A stretch of DNA of 64,000 nt from Oceanibaculum indicum P24 (GTDB lineage: Bacteria; Pseudomonadota; Alphaproteobacteria; Oceanibaculales; Oceanibaculaceae), in NCBI RefSeq assembly GCF_000299935.1, contig NZ_AMRL01000005.1:62001-126000 (forward strand), read 5' to 3'. A model generated the notes under the pieces. It made no database searches. It was not told the DNA's origin and saw only the letters and a list, made by a program, of their open reading frames with translations. The translations under genes were made by a program, and so were the position numbers. Each line of letters starts with the position of its first letter. Position 1 is the stretch's first letter. Positions 53,542 to 63,924 of this stretch are shown here, in pieces.

Positions 53542-56500
53542 TCACTCCGCCGCACTCCTGTCCGCCGCCGAGGCGAGCTGCCGCCCGACCAGCCGGGCAT
53601 AGAGCCCACCCTGTGCCAGCAGCTCCGCATGGTGGCCGGTTTCGACGACACGGCCCTGGTCCAGCACGACGATGCGGTCGGCGCCGCGCACGGTGGACAG
53701 CCGGTGCGCGATGACGATGGTGGTTCGGCCCTGCTGCAGCCGGTCCAGCGCCGCGCGCACCGCCTGCTCGTTCACCGCGTCCAGATGCGAGGTGGCCTCG
53801 TCCAGCACCAGCACCGGCGCGTCTTTCAGGAAGGCGCGGGCGATGGCGACACGCTGGCGCTGTCCGCCGGACAGGCTGGTGCCGCGTTCGCCGACCCTGG
53901 TCGCCAGCCCATCGGGCAGGGCCTCCACCAGATCGGTGAGGGAGGCGTTGCGCACTGCCGCCTCGATATCCGTAGCACTGGCATCGGGCCGGGCGAGGCG
54001 GATATTGGCCTCCAGCGTGTCGTTGAACAGGTAGGTGTCCTGCGCCACCAGCGCGATGCGGGTGCGCAGATCGTCCAGCTTCCAGCGCCGCAGATCCTGG
54101 CCGTCCAGTACGATGCGGCCGGATTCCGGGTCCCAGAAGCGCATCAGCAGTTGCGCCAGCGTGGTCTTGCCGGCACCTGACGGGCCGACCAGCGCCACCG
54201 TCTCGCCCGGCTGTGCGTGGAAGCTGACGCCGGTCAGTGCCGGACGGCTGGTTCCGGGGTAGCGGAAGCCGACTTCCTCCAGCACCAGATCGGCGCCCTG
54301 CGCGCCTTCTGCCCGCGCGACCTCCACACCGGGGCCGTCTTCCACCACAGGCTTTTCCTGCTCCACCGCATGGATACGCCGTGTGGCGCCCAACGTGTCG
54401 GCAAGCTGCCGGCCGATCTGCGCGATCTCGGATACCGGAAGGAAGGCGGCCAGCGCCAGCAGGGTCAGCAGCGGCAGATGGCCGGCATCGATGGCGCCAA
54501 TGGAAGCCAGATAGGCCCCGGTGACGACGATGGCGAGGCCGCCAAGTCCGGTCAGCACCTCCAGCAGGCTGTGCTGCGCCGTCAGCTCGCGGAAGAACGG
54601 CATGCGCAGATGCATGTGATGCTCGGTCAGCCGGTCGAGCGCATCGCCGCGCGTCCGTTCCTGCCGGTTGGCGACGATCTCGCCCAGCCCCTGCACGGTA
54701 TCGACGGCATGCGCGGCCAGCTCGCCGGCGGCTTCCCGCGCGCGCGATCCCAGCCGGTCCACGCGGCGGCGCATCAGCCAGGGGCTCAACCCCACCGCCA
54801 GCAGGAAGGGCAGCAGCACGAGCGCCAGTAGCGGGTCCTGGCCGGCCAGCACCGCCAGCACGACGGCGGGCACCAGCACGGCGACGACGGCGGGGGTGAT
54901 GGTGTGGGCGAAGAAGTACTCCACCAGTTCGATATCATGGGTGGCGATGCCCATCAGGTCGCCGGTGCGGCGGCGCACCAGATAGGCCGGCGCCAGCTTG
55001 TCCAGCTTGTTGAACATGGCGATGCGCATCTCCGCCAGCAGCCGGAAGGCGACATCGTGCGCCAGCCAGGATTCCGCCCAGTGCAGGATGCCGGCCAGCG
55101 GTGCCGTCACGAACAGCCAGGGCAGCAGGTGCCCGAAAGGCTGGCCGTTCTTCAGTGCCAGCACGATCAGCGCGCTGACCACGCCGACGCCGATGAAGGC
55201 GGCGACCCGGGTGACGCCGAAGATGAAGGTCAGCGCCATCTTGCCGCGCCATGGGGTGATCAGCCGCATCAGGATGACGATCAGCTGGCCCCAGCCCAGC
55301 CCCTCGGCGGCGACGATGCCCTCGGTCGGCCCGACGGCCTGTCCGGTGGGAAGATCGGCAGCAGCCTGCGCCGGCGCATCGGTCTTCGCCGCACCGTCCA
55401 GCAGCGGCGCATCCTGCCGGCGTTCGGCATCCTTCGCCTGCTCGGCCATGAGGGCCGCATAGACGCCGCCCTTTTCCATCAGCGCGGCGTGGTTGCCTTC
55501 CTCCGCCACTCTGCCCTCATCCAGCACCAGAATGCGGTCGCAGCCGATGATGCTGGACAGGCGGTGCGCCAGCACCAGCGTGGTGCGGCCCTGCATCAGC
55601 CGGTCCAGCGCCTGCTGGATGACCGCCTCATTCTCGGCATCGATGGCCGACAGCGCCTCATCCAGGATCAGGATCGGGGCGTCGCGCAGGATGGCGCGGG
55701 CAATGGCCACGCGCTGGCGCTGGCCGCCGGACAGCTTGATGCCCTTCTCGCCGATCAGCGTGTCATAGCCCTGCGGCAGCCCCATGATGAAATCGTGGAT
55801 GTTGGCCGCTTTCGCCGCCTCGATCATGGCGTCCCGGTCGGCGTCGGGGCGGCCCAGCAGGATATTCTCGCCAATCGTGCCGTGGAACAGATAGGCGTCC
55901 TGATGCACGACGGCGATGCGGCTGCGGATATCGGCGAAGGGAATCTGCCGCAGGTCGGTGCCGCCGATGCGGATATGGCCCCGGTCGGGATCGAAGAAGC
56001 GCAGCAGCAGCCGCACGATGGAGGATTTGCCGACGCCGGACGGGCCGACGATGCCGACCCGCTCGCCCGGCTTTACGGAGAAGCTGAGGCCATCATGGGT
56101 CAGCCGCCGGCTGCCCGGATAGGCGAAGGCGACATCCTCGAAGCTGATGGAAGGCTCCAGCGCGGCAGGCGCAGGACCGGTCGCGTCAGGCACCGGCGGC
56201 TGGGCGTCGAAGATGCGATAGACACCCTGCGCCGCCGACAGCCCGACCATGCCCTCATGCAGCACGGTGCGCAGATCGCGCATCGGGCGGAACATCTCAA
56301 TGCCGGTCATCAGGATCATCAGCAGCGCGGTCAGCTCCATGGCGCCGGCCTCCACGCGGAAGGCGCCCAGCGCCAGCGCCGCCGCCGCGCCCAGCGCGAT
56401 GGAGGTATCGGTGATGCCACGTGCCAGCGTGTTGGTCGCCAGCACCCACATGGTGGAGCGGAACAGATCGCGCGCCTTCACCGCCAGCAACTCGGCGCGC

Positions 56501-57147
56501 GGGCGGCTCTGCCCGAAGGCCTTCAGCGTGGCGAGGCCCTGGATCGAATCCAGCAGTTCGGAGGCGAAGGCCGAATAGGCACGCTGCCGGTCGCGTGCCT
56601 TGCGGGTGTCAAGCTTGTGCCAGGCCGCCGGGGCGAACAGCGCCAGCAGGGCAAAGCCCAGCATGATCAGCGCCACCGGTAGGTCCAGCCAGGCGACGAA
56701 GCCGAAGATCAGGAAAGGGGTGAGGGCGGAGACCAGCAGCTGCGGGATGTACTTGCCGAAATAGGTCTCCAGCTGCTCCACACTGTCGATCAGGGTCAGC
56801 GCCAGGTCGCCGGAGCGCTGCTGGCCGACATAGGCCGGCCCCAGTGCCGCGATCTTGTCGTAGATGGCGCGTCGCAGCTTCGCCTGCACACGGGCGGCGG
56901 TTTCGTGTGCGACCATGATGCGCCATTGCTCGAAGAAGCCGCGCAGGATCATGGCCAATCCGACCAGCACCGCCGGCAGCAGGATTTCCTGCAGCGTCGC
57001 GCCCTGGAACACCCTGGCGATCAGCCAGCCCAGCAAGGCAAGGCGCGCGATGCCGAGGGCGACTGCCATGAGGCCGATGGCAACGGCACCGGCGATGCGC
57101 CAGCGCACACCCTCGGTATAGGCCCACAGGCGCATCTCAAAATGCAT
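53542..57147 (-). CDS. Fused two-unit ABC exporter, CydD-CydC-like
   Basis: 1201 residues containing two complete half-transporters. Unit 1: TM domain about 1-320, NBD about 340-580 (Walker A GPSGVGKSS, signature LSGGQRQRVAIA, Walker B LILDEALSAID). Unit 2: TM domain about 635-930, NBD about 960-1190 (Walker A GPSGAGKTT, signature LSGGQRQRVAIA, Walker B LVLDEATSHLD). Both catalytic Glu residues are present. Features such as YFGKYIPQLLVSALTPFLI and the MRDL helix recall CydD; unit 2 recalls CydC. CydDC exports cysteine/glutathione for cytochrome bd assembly; no cydAB is in the window. Multidrug export is the main alternative. CGGAG 6 bases before the ATG supports this start. Confidence 0.85.
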   Translation of the reverse strand: MHFEMRLWAYTEGVRWRIAGAVAIGLMAVALGIARLALLGWLIARVFQGATLQEILLPAVLVGLAMILRGFFEQWRIMVAHETAARVQAKLRRAIYDKIAALGPAYVGQQRSGDLALTLIDSVEQLETYFGKYIPQLLVSALTPFLIFGFVAWLDLPVALIMLGFALLALFAPAAWHKLDTRKARDRQRAYSAFASELLDSIQGLATLKAFGQSRPRAELLAVKARDLFRSTMWVLATNTLARGITDTSIALGAAAALALGAFRVEAGAMELTALLMILMTGIEMFRPMRDLRTVLHEGMVGLSAAQGVYRIFDAQPPVPDATGPAPAALEPSISFEDVAFAYPGSRRLTHDGLSFSVKPGERVGIVGPSGVGKSSIVRLLLRFFDPDRGHIRIGGTDLRQIPFADIRSRIAVVHQDAYLFHGTIGENILLGRPDADRDAMIEAAKAANIHDFIMGLPQGYDTLIGEKGIKLSGGQRQRVAIARAILRDAPILILDEALSAIDAENEAVIQQALDRLMQGRTTLVLAHRLSSIIGCDRILVLDEGRVAEEGNHAALMEKGGVYAALMAEQAKDAERRQDAPLLDGAAKTDAPAQAAADLPTGQAVGPTEGIVAAEGLGWGQLIVILMRLITPWRGKMALTFIFGVTRVAAFIGVGVVSALIVLALKNGQPFGHLLPWLFVTAPLAGILHWAESWLAHDVAFRLLAEMRIAMFNKLDKLAPAYLVRRRTGDLMGIATHDIELVEYFFAHTITPAVVAVLVPAVVLAVLAGQDPLLALVLLPFLLAVGLSPWLMRRRVDRLGSRAREAAGELAAHAVDTVQGLGEIVANRQERTRGDALDRLTEHHMHLRMPFFRELTAQHSLLEVLTGLGGLAIVVTGAYLASIGAIDAGHLPLLTLLALAAFLPVSEIAQIGRQLADTLGATRRIHAVEQEKPVVEDGPGVEVARAEGAQGADLVLEEVGFRYPGTSRPALTGVSFHAQPGETVALVGPSGAGKTTLAQLLMRFWDPESGRIVLDGQDLRRWKLDDLRTRIALVAQDTYLFNDTLEANIRLARPDASATDIEAAVRNASLTDLVEALPDGLATRVGERGTSLSGGQRQRVAIARAFLKDAPVLVLDEATSHLDAVNEQAVRAALDRLQQGRTTIVIAHRLSTVRGADRIVVLDQGRVVETGHHAELLAQGGLYARLVGRQLASAADRSAAE

Positions 57148-58155: not shown

Positions 58156-59910
58156 TTAGGCCTTTTCCTCCATCAGGGTCTGACCCCTCGGGATGCGGAT
58201 CGAGTCGATGAAATCCTGCATCTCCCTGGATGGCGGCGGCGTCATCATGCTGACGATGATGGTCGCCAGGAAGCCCGTCGGGATACCGAACAGGCCCGCC
58301 GAGATGTTGGAGACACCGAACCACAGCGGCATGCCGAAATACTTCGTCCCCACCAGGTAGAACAGGGTGAAGCCGAAGCCGACAAGCATACCGGCGATGG
58401 CGCCTTCCTTCGTGCAGCGTTTCCACCACACACCCAGCACCAGCACGGGGAACAACCCGGCCGCCGCCAGCGAGAAGGCCCAGGCGACAAGTGCCAGGAT
58501 GCCACCCGGTCTTGTCGAAGCGACCGCCGCTGCCAGGATCGCGACCACAACCAGCAGGATGCGGGCGACGACCAGACGCTTGGCCGTGGAGGCCTGCGGA
58601 TCGATCATGCGGTAGTAGATATCGTGGCTGAGCGCGTTGGCGATGGCCAGCAGCAGGCCGTCCGCAGTGGACAGCGCGGCTGCCAGACCGCCGGCGGCGA
58701 CCAGACCCGCGATCACGTAGGGCAGGCCGGCGATTTCCGGGGTCGCGATCACGATCACGTCCGGATTGATCTTCAGTTCGGCGAACTGAAGGATGCCGTC
58801 CTTGTTGGCGTCGGCGATGGTGACAAGGCCGATGTCGGAGTAGATCTTCACCCAGTTCGGCAGTTCGGCGATGGTCGCACCGATGACGTTGGTGAAGATT
58901 TCGTACTTCGCGAAGGCGGCATAGGCCGGCGCCGTGAAATACAGCAGGAAGATGAACAGCAGGCTCCAGCCGACCGACTTGCGGGCATCACGGACGCTGG
59001 GCGTCGTGAAGAACCGCATCAGCACGTGCGGCAGGGAGGCCGTACCGACCATCAGACACAGGATCAGCGCGAAGAAGTTCAGCGGATCGAAGGTCGTAAA
59101 TGGCATCACGTGTGCCTGGGCACCCGCGAGGGCCGGCTTCGTCTGCTCCAGCTCGGTGATGCGCTGCAGGATTTCGCCATACATCAGCTGCGGGATCGGA
59201 ATGCCCGTGGTCTGGGCCGACAGGATAACGACCGGCACCAGGTAGGCGATGATCAGCACGATGTACTGTGCGACCTGCGTCCAGGTAACCGCCCGCATGC
59301 CGCCCATCATCGAGCAGACCAGAATGCCGATCAGACCCACGAACACGGCGATCTCGAAGGAGATGCCGAGGAAGCGCGAGGCGATCGTGCCGACACCCAC
59401 CACCTGACCGACAATGTAGGTGAAGGAGCAGGCAAACAGCACCAGAATGCCGATCGACCGGGCGAAGTTGCCGCCGAAACGCGCACCCAGGAAGTCGGGC
59501 ACGGTATAGGCGCCGAACTTGCGCAGGTATGGTGCGATCAGCACCGCCACCAGCACATAGCCGCCGGTCCAGCCCAGCACGAAGGCAAGGCCGTCATAGC
59601 CGCGGGCATACAGGCCGCCCGCCATGGCGATGAAGGATGCGGCGCTCATCCAGTCCGCGGCGGTCGCCATGCCGTTGTAGAGCGGCGGCACGCGGCGTCC
59701 GGCGACGTAGTATTCGGACACCTGCATGGTCCGCGACAGGATGCCGATGCCGGCATAGACCGCGATCGTGAAGAACACGAACAGATAGCCGATGATCTTG
59801 TTCGGGACGCCCAGCTGCTCAAGGATCGCGAGCAGGATGACGAAGCCCAGGAAGCCGCCGGTATAGACACCGTAGATGCGGCCAAGGTTGGAAATGAAAT
59901 CCCCTTTCAT
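58156..59910 (-). CDS. Sodium:solute symporter, VC_2705/ActP-like
   Basis: 584 residues, about 13-14 membrane segments. SSF core segments include GRRVPPLYNGMATAADWMSAASFIAMAGGLYARG, the VGQVVGVGTIASRF region, FFALILCLMVGTASLPHVLMRF, and LAAALSTADGLLLAIANALSHD, the SSF signature. It resembles acetate permease ActP, but the paired DUF4212 gene marks the VC_2705 subfamily. Transports a small monocarboxylate with sodium; the substrate is not certain. ATG at 59910 follows GGGGGAC. A strong terminator follows. Confidence 0.93.
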   Translation of the reverse strand: MKGDFISNLGRIYGVYTGGFLGFVILLAILEQLGVPNKIIGYLFVFFTIAVYAGIGILSRTMQVSEYYVAGRRVPPLYNGMATAADWMSAASFIAMAGGLYARGYDGLAFVLGWTGGYVLVAVLIAPYLRKFGAYTVPDFLGARFGGNFARSIGILVLFACSFTYIVGQVVGVGTIASRFLGISFEIAVFVGLIGILVCSMMGGMRAVTWTQVAQYIVLIIAYLVPVVILSAQTTGIPIPQLMYGEILQRITELEQTKPALAGAQAHVMPFTTFDPLNFFALILCLMVGTASLPHVLMRFFTTPSVRDARKSVGWSLLFIFLLYFTAPAYAAFAKYEIFTNVIGATIAELPNWVKIYSDIGLVTIADANKDGILQFAELKINPDVIVIATPEIAGLPYVIAGLVAAGGLAAALSTADGLLLAIANALSHDIYYRMIDPQASTAKRLVVARILLVVVAILAAAVASTRPGGILALVAWAFSLAAAGLFPVLVLGVWWKRCTKEGAIAGMLVGFGFTLFYLVGTKYFGMPLWFGVSNISAGLFGIPTGFLATIIVSMMTPPPSREMQDFIDSIRIPRGQTLMEEKA

Positions 59911-59924
59911 GGCATGTCCCCCGC

Positions 59925-60197
59925 TCAGTCTTCAGCGACGCCGCATTCCTCATCGATCTGGTTCTGCTTGGCCGAATACCAGAAGATGAGGACGACGAAG
60001 GCAATGAGCGAACCCTGCGCGGCCATGTAGAAGCCGAGCGGGAAGCCGATGAAGTTGATTTCGTTCAGCGCACTGACGAAGAAGTGCACGACGAAGCTGA
60101 AAAAGAACCAGATGGCCAATGTGACCCACATCAGCGACTTGGTCCGTTGCCAGTGCTCCACCGCCTTTTCGGGTGAAGTCGAGGAATCGCTAGACAT
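59925..60197 (-). CDS. DUF4212 small membrane protein, symporter partner
   Basis: 90 residues, two membrane segments (about 22-42 and 54-74). Hallmarks are EKAVEHWQRTKSLMWVTLAIWFFFSFVVHF and LNEINFIGFPLGFYMAAQGS, the DUF4212/putative solute:sodium symporter small-subunit pattern. It is the companion of the VC_2705-type permease, 14 bases downstream. GGAGGGAG precedes the ATG at 60197. C-terminal EECGVAED is cytoplasmic or periplasmic. Confidence 0.93.
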   Translation of the reverse strand: MSSDSSTSPEKAVEHWQRTKSLMWVTLAIWFFFSFVVHFFVSALNEINFIGFPLGFYMAAQGSLIAFVVLIFWYSAKQNQIDEECGVAED

Positions 60198-60269
60198 TTC
60201 GAATACGTCTCCCTCCTGTTTGCCGGGCGGCTGATTTTTTGTTTATTTCCGCCCCAAATGACCCTTTTA

Positions 60270-60312
60270 CGCACAATTGTCTTTGCCCGATTTTTTCAGG
60301 CAAAGCTGTGCG
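60270..60312. repeat. Extended hairpin in the divergent region before DUF4212
   Basis: CGCACA (60270-60275) pairs with TGTGCG (60307-60312) and CTTTGCC (60281-60287) with GGCAAAG (60299-60305); a 5-base bulge and an 11-base T-rich loop lie between. It sits about 70-115 bases from the DUF4212 start. It could be a leader-RNA structure or paired operator sites. Confidence 0.55.
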
Positions 60313-60410
60313 CGCAATCGAAACGGCTCTACCTAAACCTTCTCTTGCGCTTACCCGAAAATAGCATAGCCTATTATTTGTCAAAACAATAATTCTGGGC
60401 GGGGGAGGAT

Positions 60411-61061
60411 TTGTTAGCTTCGATTACACGTCTTTGGCGGCCCGAATCTTCAGTAGAGGACGCTGCGGCCTTTCGTCGTTTCATGGCCGAGCAGTCGGCT
60501 TTTGTGGCGCAGAAATGCACATTCGAGTATGCACGCGCCCGCGCCGGGCTGAACTGGGACAAGCTGTTCCGGGAAATGGCCTTCCGCCAGGCGGTGGAAA
60601 AATCGCGCTGGGAAGCCTTCTGCTATGTGCTGTCCGACATCGGGATCATCCTGGAGGGCGCCTTGCGACCGCACGCGGCGGAGCGAGAGCTCGAACTGGC
60701 GGAGCGCATGGGGCGGCTGTTCGAGTTGTGCCTGCTGGAACATGCCATCCCCGACCACCGGCCGGAGGGCTGGGGCGATGAGATCGAGGCCTTCAAACTG
60801 CGCCTTGCCCAGGCACAGCTGGCGGCGCCCAGGGCGCCCTACGATATCGGCCTGACCTCAGGCGGGCGCATCTACAAGGTGCTGCCGATCCACAGCAACC
60901 TCACCCGCTTCGACCGCGAACTGGTGACCAATAACATCCGCTTCGCGCTGTGCCGTTTCCATGAGGATATGCAGCGGCGGCTGGTGCCCGCTGCCGTCGT
61001 GGCGGACCTGCTGACCAGCGCCCCGGCTGCCCATCCGGCCGCCCCCTCTGGCGAGAGCTGA
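60411..61061 (+). CDS. Protein of unknown function, symporter-module associated
   Basis: 216 residues, helical throughout and soluble; rich in Arg, Ala and Leu with no metal or nucleotide motif that I recognise. Notable runs: QKCTFEYARARAGLNWDKLF, WEAFCYVLSDIGIILEGAL, and a conserved-looking ending YKVLPIHSNLTRFDRELVTNNIRFALC. It starts at TTG 60411 just after GGGGGAGG (spacing is short; no better start is seen). It is divergent from DUF4212 and followed 11 bases later by the exonuclease fusion, so the three rightward genes probably form one operon. Confidence 0.7.
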   Translation: MLASITRLWRPESSVEDAAAFRRFMAEQSAFVAQKCTFEYARARAGLNWDKLFREMAFRQAVEKSRWEAFCYVLSDIGIILEGALRPHAAERELELAERMGRLFELCLLEHAIPDHRPEGWGDEIEAFKLRLAQAQLAAPRAPYDIGLTSGGRIYKVLPIHSNLTRFDRELVTNNIRFALCRFHEDMQRRLVPAAVVADLLTSAPAAHPAAPSGES

Positions 61062-61072
61062 GCGGGGGCCTC

Positions 61073-62467
61073 TTGCGCGGCGGCTTGCGGAAGGCGCTGT
61101 TCGTCACCCTGCTGGTGACGGCTGGCGGCTTCCTGACTGCGCTGTTCCCCGCCTTGTTCGGGCTGGCCGACCTTACTGAGGGCATCGGCGTCTGGGCGCT
61201 GGCCAGCCTTGTAGGCCTTGCCGCCGGCCTCGCCGGGCTGTGGGTCATGATGACCCTGCTGGACGGGCATTTCGACCAGCTGGTGCGCCTGCATGGCGCG
61301 GTGCTGGGCGCCGGGGTGCGCGGTGGCACGCTGCCGGACAGCTGGAATGCGCGCGGCGGAAAGCCGGACGAGCTGCAGCGGCTGGCCGGCGCCATCGCCG
61401 CCATGCTGGCGCGCGACCGCGCCGATGACCGCCGTGTCGATGCGCGGCTCAGCGCGATCCTCGGCGCCATCGGCGAGCCGATCCTGGTGGTGACGCAGAC
61501 CGGCCTCATCAGCCTGATGAACGCCAAGGCCGCTGCCCTGCTCGGCGCGGACCGGCTGCATCTGGGCGGCAGCCTCTACGCCATCCTCGACCGGACGCCG
61601 CTGATCGACGCCTCCGGCGAATCGCGGGCGGCGGGCGCGCCGGTCGAGCGGACCCTCACCGGGGTCGCGGGCGATACCTACCCCGCGCGGGTCGTGCCGC
61701 TGGACGAACCCGACGGCCTGCTGATCGTGTTCCTGTCCGATGTGCCGGGCCATGCCGCCGGCATTGTGGAGCATGACATGGCTCTGCACGACACGCCGCC
61801 GGATATCGCGCCGCACCCGGACCTGCCGCTGACCGAGCTGCCGGCCCTGTCTCTGGATTGCGAGACGACCGGGCTGAATGTTGCCACTGACCGCGTCGTC
61901 TCCGCCGCCGGTATCGTCATGCACGGGCCGCGGCTCTACCGCCATCTCGCCTATGACCGGCTGGTCAATCCGGGCGTGCCGATCCCGCCTGCCTCCACAG
62001 CGATCCACGGCATCACCGATGACATGGTCGCATCGGCGCCGCCGGTCGCCGAGGTGCTGGCGGAACTGGCCGAGCTGCTGCGCGGGCGTGTCGTGATCGG
62101 CCACAACATCGCCTTCGACCTGGCGGTGCTGCGTGCCGAGGCGGCCCGGCACGGCGTCGCCTGGAGCGATCCGCCGGCGCTGTGTACGGCGCTGCTGTTC
62201 AGCTTCCTGTATCCGCGCCACCGCGACCTGAACATGGAGGCGGTGGCCGCCATGTGCGGCGCGGAGATCGAGGGCCGCCACACCGCTTTCGGCGACTGCC
62301 TGGTGACCGCCGAGATCTTCGCCGGCATGCTGCCGCTGCTGGCCGAACAGGGCGTCACCACGCTGGCGGATGCCCAGCGCGTCCTGGCGCAGCCTTCCGT
62401 CATGCGGGCTCGCCAGCATGAGGCCGGGTGGCATGCGCCAGCGGATGGAAAGGCAGGCGAGCGATGA
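61073..62467 (+). CDS. Membrane-anchored PAS-DEDDh exonuclease fusion (DnaQ-like)
   Basis: 464 residues. Two membrane helices (about 8-30 and 38-62) precede a HAMP-like coil and a PAS-type sensor (about 125-225: RLSAILGAIGEPILVVTQTG). The C-terminal DnaQ-type exonuclease (about 255-440) has ExoI LDCETTGLN, ExoII GHNIAFDLAVL and ExoIII HTAFGDCLVTAEIF (HxxxxD), making it DEDDh. It should remove 3' nucleotides or hydrolyse a small nucleotide under sensor control. Start at TTG 61073. It ends in an ATGA overlap with the DUF294 gene. The join of sensor and exonuclease is the notable feature. Confidence 0.88.
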   Translation: MRGGLRKALFVTLLVTAGGFLTALFPALFGLADLTEGIGVWALASLVGLAAGLAGLWVMMTLLDGHFDQLVRLHGAVLGAGVRGGTLPDSWNARGGKPDELQRLAGAIAAMLARDRADDRRVDARLSAILGAIGEPILVVTQTGLISLMNAKAAALLGADRLHLGGSLYAILDRTPLIDASGESRAAGAPVERTLTGVAGDTYPARVVPLDEPDGLLIVFLSDVPGHAAGIVEHDMALHDTPPDIAPHPDLPLTELPALSLDCETTGLNVATDRVVSAAGIVMHGPRLYRHLAYDRLVNPGVPIPPASTAIHGITDDMVASAPPVAEVLAELAELLRGRVVIGHNIAFDLAVLRAEAARHGVAWSDPPALCTALLFSFLYPRHRDLNMEAVAAMCGAEIEGRHTAFGDCLVTAEIFAGMLPLLAEQGVTTLADAQRVLAQPSVMRARQHEAGWHAPADGKAGER

Positions 62468-63924
62468 ATGCCGAAGCGCTGCAGCGGCTGGACAGTTTCC
62501 CCTACCGCCACCGCGTGGCGGAGGTGATGAGCAGCCCGGTCGTCACCATGCCGGCGGCGGCCACGGTAAAGCAGGCCTGCGACTTGATGATCGAGAAGGG
62601 CATTAGTTCCGTCCTGGTCACGGGGGATAGCGGGCTGGCGCCCACTCTCGCCCCCCCGCTGGGAATCGTGACCGAGCGCGATGCGTTGCGGTTGATTGCC
62701 GAGGAAGGAGAGGCCGCTCTCGGGGCGCCGCTGTCGCGGCTGATGAGCAGCCCGGTCGAAGGCGTGCCGCAGGATGCCTTCGTCTATCTGGCGCTGGGCC
62801 GGATGGACCGGCTGGGTGTACGCCACCTGGCGGTGTTCGATACCGACGGGTCGGTGGTCGGCATCCTGTCGGCGCGGCAGCTGTTGCGCCAGCGCGCTGG
62901 CTCCGCGCTGGCCATCGGCGACCGTATCGGGGTTGCCCGCAGCGCGGAGGAAATGCTGGAGATCGTGCGCGGCCTGCCGGCCCTCGCCAGTTCGCTGCTG
63001 GCCGAGCAGGTGGCACCGCTGGACGTGGCCGCCGTCATCTCCGGCGTGATGCGCGATGTGACCGGCCGCGCTGCGCACCTGTCGGCAGAGGCGATGGCGG
63101 AGGCCGGCTGGGGTCCCGCGCCGGCGCCCTGGTGCGCGCTGATCCTGGGGTCCGGCGGGCGCGGCGAGAGCCTGCTGGCCCCGGATCAGGACAATGGCAT
63201 CCTGCATGCCGGCACGCCGAAGGACGATGCCTGGTACGCCGAGCTGGGCCGCCGCATGGCCGACATGCTGAACGAGGCCGGTATCCCCTACTGCAAGGGC
63301 GGGGTGATGGCGAAGAACCCGGAATGGCGCCATGACGAGACTGGCTGGCGCCGCGCCATCGATATCTGGGCGGAACGGCCAATCGGGGAAAACCTGCTGA
63401 ATGTCGATATCTTCTTCGATTTTCAGGCGGTCGCGGGCCGGGGCGATCTGGCGGAGCTGCTGCGCGCCTACGCGCTGGACCGCGCCCGCAAGACCATCGG
63501 CTTCCTGCGCAATTTGTCGCTGAACCAGCGCGAGATGCGCCCGCCGCTGGGCTTCTTCGGCGGCATCCAGACCATCGACGGGCGCGTCGATCTGAAGATC
63601 GGCGGGTTGCTGCCGGTGGTCAGCGCCGCACGTATCCTGGCGCTGCGGGGCGGGGTCGCGGCGACGGCGACGGCGGAGCGGCTGCGCGAGGCCGCCAGCC
63701 TGGGGCTGATCGCGGAGAATGACGCCGCCGACCTTGCCGGCGCCCATCGCATTCTGGTGCGGCTGGTGCTGGAACAGCAGATCGAGGATATCGCCGAGGG
63801 CCGCCAACCCGGCACAAGGGTGGAGCTGGCCCGCCTGACCAAGCCGCAACGCCATCTGCTGCGCGAGGTACTGCGCCGCATCGGCCAGGTACCCGACATG
63901 GTGCAGGACGCCCTTTCCGCGTAA
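62464..63924 (+). CDS. CBS-pair DUF294 nucleotidyltransferase-like protein
   Basis: 486 residues. Two CBS motifs (about 18-145: VAEVMSSPVVTMPAAATVKQACDLMIEKG and LMSSPVEGVPQDAFVYLALGRMD) that bind adenosyl nucleotides. A DUF294 nucleotidyltransferase domain follows (about 155-330) with the metal-site motif LGSGGRGESLLAPDQDN. The C-terminal DUF294_C helical domain (about 340-486) ends LTKPQRHLLREVLRRIG. The family is predicted to modify a protein or small molecule by nucleotidyl transfer (GlnD-like). ATG 62464 overlaps the exonuclease stop (ATGA). Confidence 0.93.
   Translation: MNAEALQRLDSFPYRHRVAEVMSSPVVTMPAAATVKQACDLMIEKGISSVLVTGDSGLAPTLAPPLGIVTERDALRLIAEEGEAALGAPLSRLMSSPVEGVPQDAFVYLALGRMDRLGVRHLAVFDTDGSVVGILSARQLLRQRAGSALAIGDRIGVARSAEEMLEIVRGLPALASSLLAEQVAPLDVAAVISGVMRDVTGRAAHLSAEAMAEAGWGPAPAPWCALILGSGGRGESLLAPDQDNGILHAGTPKDDAWYAELGRRMADMLNEAGIPYCKGGVMAKNPEWRHDETGWRRAIDIWAERPIGENLLNVDIFFDFQAVAGRGDLAELLRAYALDRARKTIGFLRNLSLNQREMRPPLGFFGGIQTIDGRVDLKIGGLLPVVSAARILALRGGVAATATAERLREAASLGLIAENDAADLAGAHRILVRLVLEQQIEDIAEGRQPGTRVELARLTKPQRHLLREVLRRIGQVPDMVQDALSA

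Follow-up and report, generated by a model that had tools for sequence, protein, structure and literature searches.

A DEDDh exonuclease and a CBS-DUF294 protein linked to acetate-family symporters in Pseudomonadota: a candidate protein nucleotidylation switch

Gene content of the locus

The window, that is, the whole 64,000-nucleotide stretch of Oceanibaculum indicum P24 DNA analyzed here, contains two gene groups that diverge from a short intergenic region read directly from the sequence (60198 to 60410). On the forward strand lie, in order, an unnamed gene that we call ORF216 (60411 to 61061), the gene for a membrane-anchored PAS-DEDDh exonuclease of 464 amino acids (61073 to 62467), and the gene for a CBS-DUF294-DUF294_C protein of 486 amino acids (62464 to 63924). 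The reverse strand, divergent from this operon, encodes a DUF4212 symporter small subunit of 90 amino acids (59925 to 60197) and the 584-amino-acid large subunit of a VC_2705-family sodium/solute symporter (58156 to 59910). Direct reading places the exonuclease stop and the CBS-DUF294 start in a shared ATGA at 62464 to 62467. The preliminary description of this DNA had named the exonuclease, the DUF294 protein, the symporter, and the DUF4212 protein and had pointed to the ATGA coupling; open reading frame, Pfam, and NCBIfam matches place every one of these parts where it had put them, and the overlap is as it was described. Its gene set has to be extended, as the operon begins one gene sooner, with ORF216, which had been omitted. 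Promoter and terminator scans of the divergent region returned no consensus element, and the CrbR (ACTU) inverted repeat was absent from it when sought with an approximated pattern of a motif defined in gammaproteobacteria. The DUF294 gene is followed, about 36 bases on, by a gene for a double-GNAT acetyltransferase (63960 to the window end; L002:9961-10791), which may belong to the exonuclease-DUF294 operon. Also on the reverse strand (53542 to 57147) is the gene for a 1,201-residue protein that combines both halves of an ABC exporter, each of them complete, in a single chain and resembles the fused CydD-CydC type of exporter.

The large subunit of the symporter scores 756.8 bits against TIGR03648 (1e-227; curated cut-off, 320.75 bits) and matches the SSF family at 2.6e-60, while the adjoining small subunit scores 100.2 bits against TIGR03647 (cut-off, 26.05 bits) and matches PF13937 at 1e-28. 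The pair is thus of the VC_2705 type, as the preliminary description had it. The genome holds a single gene over the TIGR03648 cut-off and, likewise, a single DUF294 gene. The symporter carries a canonical EF-hand-like calcium loop, DxNxDGxLQxxE, at DANKDGILQFAE; the loop is present in 24 of the 69 symporter ORFs examined, and its sequence suggests that part of the symporter family may bind calcium.

ORF216 had no match in Pfam, NCBIfam, or PDB sequence searches. Its AlphaFold model is confident (pLDDT 93) and all-helical; Foldseek found nothing under an E value of 0.4, and the best Z score of a second look, 6.9, lies within the noise for helical bundles, so that the model supports no known-fold assignment. 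By alignment search, the gene was found in 38 of 240 alphaproteobacterial genomes. DUF4212 and symporter genes lie within 10 kb of it in 30 of the 32 alphaproteobacterial neighborhoods fetched, and in the remaining two the contig breaks off on the side where the symporter would lie, which makes 30 of 30 testable loci. ORF216 usually comes first among the divergent genes and keeps its symporter neighbor even where DUF294 and the exonuclease are not nearby. Among the genomes of this latter kind, seven carry DUF294 elsewhere, and five, of which four are incomplete or small, yielded no DUF294 gene anywhere. An unannotated family that stays with one symporter pair is a study target in its own right.

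A membrane-anchored PAS-DEDDh exonuclease

The exonuclease gene starts with TTG, the first start in frame and the sole start ahead of the transmembrane helices. A hydropathy scan predicts two such helices (residues ~7 to 25 and ~37 to 55; 61091 to 61237) joined by a loop of about 10 residues, with no extracytoplasmic sensor domain between them. The "sensor on the membrane" of the preliminary description therefore stands as a membrane-anchored protein and falls as an outside receptor, since so short a loop is all that separates the helices. A cytosolic PAS-like domain follows (61445 to 61762). Its match to PF00989 in the window is weak (3.9e-4) and covers residues 125 to 168 at 20.9 bits, under the Pfam gathering cut-off of 22.6; the domain occurs in relatives too, and that of the relative in locus L003 passes the cut-off with 22.9 bits.

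The C-terminal part is an RNase_T/DEDDh domain (61853 to 62320; PF00929, 9.7e-28; residues 261 to 416). The exonuclease motifs had been called complete, and all five residues, D262, E264, D349, H403, and D408, are indeed present; from the domain match and this full set the protein is predicted to be a DEDDh exonuclease. D262, E264, H403, and D408 are kept in 59 of 59 module exonucleases and D349 in 85%; among the stand-alone exonucleases, one gammaproteobacterial group has E aligned at the third acid where D is expected. An anti-phage role was considered and set aside; the PADLOC matches span the DEDDh domain alone.

Such an enzyme might simply trim transcripts, for example symporter or acs mRNA, or DNA at the membrane, with DUF294 nucleotidylating the exonuclease itself or an RNA 3' end. 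The sequence neighbors of the DEDDh domain are polymerase-associated exonucleases, and the ATGA overlap, together with the gene fusion described below, would suit direct control of one protein by the other. However, a membrane tether, a PAS input, and a constant link to one transporter family would be odd for general RNA decay, and Pfam searches found no RNA-binding domain in the protein. We regard this explanation as rather unlikely.

A CBS-DUF294 protein with a GlnE/DrrA-like predicted fold

The product of the second coupled gene, modeled with a pLDDT of 92, begins with a CBS pair (62509 to 62907; PF00571, 1.9e-19). The modeled fold of this pair matches AMP-bound 2rif (Z 17.8), and it is likely to be an adenine-nucleotide sensor. 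The DUF294 nucleotidyltransferase domain (62974 to 63381; PF03445, 3.2e-34) and the substrate-binding helical domain DUF294_C (63502 to 63906; PF10335, 6.5e-35) follow, both over their cut-offs at 118.2 and 120.5 bits. The metal motif, said earlier to be kept, reads G229-x11-D241-Q-D243 plus D319, an instance of G-x11-D-x-D, and all 63 DUF294 sequences compared share 13 invariant residues, among them G229, S230, D241, D243, and D319.

Residues 138 to 486 of the model align with the N-terminal (deadenylylation) half of GlnE (1v4a) at Z 25.9 (rmsd 3.7, 321 residues aligned), with DrrA in complex with Rab8a (6yx5) at Z 25.0, and with the C-terminal (adenylylation) half of GlnE (3k7d) at Z 24.9. 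These matches extend over 292 to 321 residues, and the next ones, well below, cover only the CBS pair. The DUF294 Pfam profile also matches inside the adenylylation domain of a GlnE (2.4e-11) and inside a GlnD (6.7e-8), and G-x11-D-x-D occurs twice in a GlnE; DrrA presumably has the same spacing. A PDB sequence-profile search with the transferase domain returned nothing real, so the link to GlnE and DrrA rests on the predicted fold and the Pfam cross-match. DUF294_C has been grouped with the C-terminal domains of GlnD and GlnE (PMC3710099).

The three nearest solved structures all belong to enzymes that attach AMP to proteins or take it off again, which makes nucleotide transfer onto a protein the most economical reading of DUF294. 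Pol-β-type transferases can also have RNA or small molecules as substrates, and the shared fold alone does not establish the DUF294 reaction; on the modeled fold we consider DUF294 to be probably a protein nucleotidyltransferase.

The preliminary description had proposed instead that a nucleotide signal is made and destroyed. In such a scheme, DUF294 would make a small or oligomeric nucleotide, the DEDDh enzyme would destroy it, and the signal would gate the symporter. DEDDh enzymes naturally cut short oligonucleotides, and oligoribonuclease clears pGpG. Pairing and fusion would suit a maker plus a destroyer, and a cyclic-nucleotide-binding (cNMP) domain is present in 30 of 65 relatives of the DUF294 protein. 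Yet that domain is absent in the window, the writer's own CBS/cNMP parts are the only messenger receptor that we found, and the closest DUF294 folds are protein AMP-transferases rather than cyclases or oligonucleotide synthases. The paired enzymes of the earlier proposal are retained; its free messenger has less support, as the DUF294 fold and motif point to a protein substrate, as in GlnE and DrrA. We consider a free signal nucleotide unlikely, and less likely than protein nucleotidylation.

Linkage to acetate-family symporters

Four genomes of the genus, and members of two further families, share this set of five genes with its arrangement unchanged. For a broader view, 150 Pseudomonadota genomes were sampled, 36 of which have a symporter over the TIGR03648 cut-off; the neighborhoods of the other 35 were fetched. 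DUF294 lies within 12 kb of the symporter gene in 25 of the 36 loci, and a DEDDh gene is near the symporter in most of these same loci. When true DUF294 genes were taken as those over 110 bits (900- to 1,000-residue GlnD- or GlnE-like hits stay below 45), 28 of 78 across the 150 genomes had a TIGR03648 gene no more than 12 kb away, where 0.3 would be expected. A further 22 are beside an ActP-like symporter, which brings those within 12 kb of an acetate-family symporter to 50 of 78. Since DUF294 is found near both VC_2705-type and ActP-like symporters, the link appears to be to acetate-family symporters in general. At the genome level, 55 genomes carry a true DUF294 gene, and 54 of these also carry a symporter of the VC_2705 type or an ActP-like one. 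All of these counts, local and genome-level, are uncorrected for phylogeny; the local distances are stronger evidence than the genome-level co-occurrence table.

The preliminary description had staked the coupling of these genes to the symporter on their co-occurrence across genomes. That comparison has now been made, and the neighborhood counts uphold a real conserved unit; we consider it highly probable that these genes form a unit of function.

The linkage also bears on a relay like that of nitrogen PII, in which DUF294 would modify a soluble regulator, not the symporter, and the genes would be neighbors through shared acetate regulation only. The DUF294 profile does match GlnD, the seven ORF216-symporter genomes mentioned above hold DUF294 away from the locus, and in Pseudomonas fluorescens the related gene pflu5625 is regulated together with acs and actP by CrbS/R (PMC5715377). 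Local linkage of 50 of 78 nevertheless exceeds what co-regulation needs, and we think such a relay quite improbable.

In three loci (L143, L144, and L145), two different DUF294 genes stand back to back near one symporter, and in L143 and L144 each has its own DEDDh gene, which suggests two parallel writer-eraser sets.

Domain shuffling and gene fusion

The domain composition of the two enzymes varies among loci. Loci of inferred gammaproteobacterial type usually combine a cNMP-CBS-DUF294 protein with a stand-alone exonuclease of about 230 residues, and alphaproteobacterial loci like that in the window combine TM-PAS-DEDDh with CBS-DUF294 lacking the cNMP domain. Relatives in Betaproteobacteria and Paracoccaceae have an extra region between PAS and DEDDh, the first helices of which resemble a histidine-kinase dimerization domain (hhalign E 4e-4, at a probability of only 35%) with the phospho-accepting His replaced by Glu. 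Two transmembrane helices, PAS, and this degenerate kinase-like region precede DEDDh in L013:4348-6645, L016:4297-6588, L036:4099-6645, L020:4444-6594, and L043:4624-6633; visual inspection of L036 suggests that the sequence upstream of the exonuclease is the tail of a response regulator gene read in a different frame.

In six loci, DEDDh and CBS-DUF294 are encoded in a single ORF, and Pfam confirms three of these. The six fused proteins form one clade in the exonuclease tree (support 100/90), which indicates one fusion event rather than independent fusions. In the same tree, the alpha- and betaproteobacterial module exonucleases fall together with modest support (85/74), and two further stand-alone groups lie apart, so that the module exonucleases are not one clade. 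That exonuclease and DUF294 belong together, as stated earlier, thus finds support in a functional pair that is fused in one clade. Input domains on the writer, on the eraser, or on both would fit two opposed enzymes of one switch, and lineage effects may contribute.

A possible cycle of protein nucleotidylation

We propose reversible protein nucleotidylation by a DUF294 writer and a DEDDh eraser dedicated to the acetate or short-carboxylate symporter, and put the probability of this reading at roughly 0.4. The CBS-DUF294 protein, as a nucleotidyltransferase of the GlnE/DrrA type whose CBS pair would read adenine nucleotides, would attach an NMP, with AMP the likeliest candidate, to a partner protein, which could be the symporter, DUF4212, ORF216, or an acetate enzyme. 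The site of the membrane-anchored PAS-DEDDh protein would bind the attached nucleotide via its free 3'-OH and cut its 5'-phosphodiester bond, releasing NMP, and the TM-PAS part might tune this activity at the membrane in response to redox, ligand, or transport state. It is from the genes, their intact catalytic residues, the conserved linkage, the exonuclease-DUF294 fusion, and the GlnE/DrrA-like predicted fold that we infer a modified protein as the product, the eraser role of DEDDh, a target, and the PAS and CBS inputs.

Enzymes of the DEDDh family bind the nucleotide at a 3' end and cleave the phosphodiester bond on its 5' side. A nucleotide attached to tyrosine fits this description, the protein serving as the leaving group. 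The DEDDh enzyme DnaQ epsilon of Escherichia coli hydrolyzes the p-nitrophenyl ester of TMP (PMC7694242, PMC4822814), which may be viewed as a phenol-linked nucleotide analogous to Tyr-AMP, and in the work that uncovered AMPylation, snake venom phosphodiesterase took AMP off glutamine synthetase (PMC12409994). These precedents make an eraser role for DEDDh chemically sound, and that the enzyme erases the DUF294 mark has, in our estimate, a little less than an even chance. We know of no DEDDh deAMPylase. A 2025 review of AMPylation makes no mention of exonucleases (PMC12409994). Also weighing against the proposal, the present analysis found no protein that is nucleotidylated by the module, and none is known; further points against it are the E at the third acid position in one exonuclease group, the scatter of the module exonucleases over more than one clade, and the lack of a match to the approximated CrbR pattern in the divergent region. 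More doubtful is the fuller scheme, in which a DEDDh fold acting as a deAMPylase or de-nucleotidylase would oppose a GlnE-like DUF294 writer under membrane PAS input, with ORF216 as a third component or target, and would control short-carboxylate uptake across Pseudomonadota.

Among known systems, GlnE (1v4a, 3k7d) shares with DUF294 the nucleotidyltransferase fold, the C-terminal helical domain, and the G-x11-D-x-D motif, and joins writer and eraser in one chain (PMC12409994), as proposed for the fused relatives. It differs in that its eraser is a second, phosphorolytic transferase domain and its control is by PII, whereas the module would have a hydrolytic DEDDh eraser and CBS/PAS inputs. 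GlnD likewise has a related transferase domain and a separate hydrolytic eraser domain, but its eraser is of the HD type and its sensor is ACT, in place of DEDDh and CBS/PAS. If correct, the proposed cycle would add to those of glutamine synthetase and PII a further bacterial covalent cycle, for carbon acids and with a new eraser fold.

A search of the open-licence literature for DUF294 with symporter and exonuclease, DUF4212, and related terms turned up no description of the module. Public genomes already show the parts and their linkage, and published work does so in part; we found no earlier account of the TM-PAS-DEDDh form, the fusion, ORF216, or the reading as protein nucleotidylation. 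Although DUF294 and exonuclease genes lie beside acetate-type symporters in many proteobacteria, we came across no assignment of a reaction to them.

Acetate context

In Pseudomonas aeruginosa, we take PA3232 to be a nuclease and PA3233 a DUF294 protein, the exonuclease of the PA3232-PA3235 cluster being presumably of the stand-alone form. This cluster, like the module, includes an acetate-family symporter, which differs in being of the ActP type; it is induced on propionate, and its symporter gene is under MxtR/ErdR (PMC9765439). Pflu5625 of P. fluorescens resembles the window protein in combining CBS and nucleotidyltransferase domains tied to acetate use and differs in having a cyclic-nucleotide-binding domain and in being reported as a separate regulon member, under CrbS/R with acs and actP; its deletion had a negligible effect on growth on acetate, which counts against the switch (PMC5715377). 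The putative substrate of the window symporter is acetate or another short carboxylate.

Elsewhere in the O. indicum genome, about 6 kb separate acsA (1,052 bits) from the gene for an SSS-histidine kinase, which adjoins that of a RamB-like regulator. Of the carboxylate-sensing system suggested in the preliminary description, the acetate or short-acid context is supported by this cluster and by the Pseudomonas reports; the PAS part is at most a putative carboxylate sensor. The cluster (L084/L207; G000:C17:32044-45300) holds acsA, the SSF-HisKA-HATPase kinase of 899 amino acids, and the RamB/ScfR-like acetate regulator within about 13 kb, and it stands beside an ABC transporter of the urea/branched-chain type.
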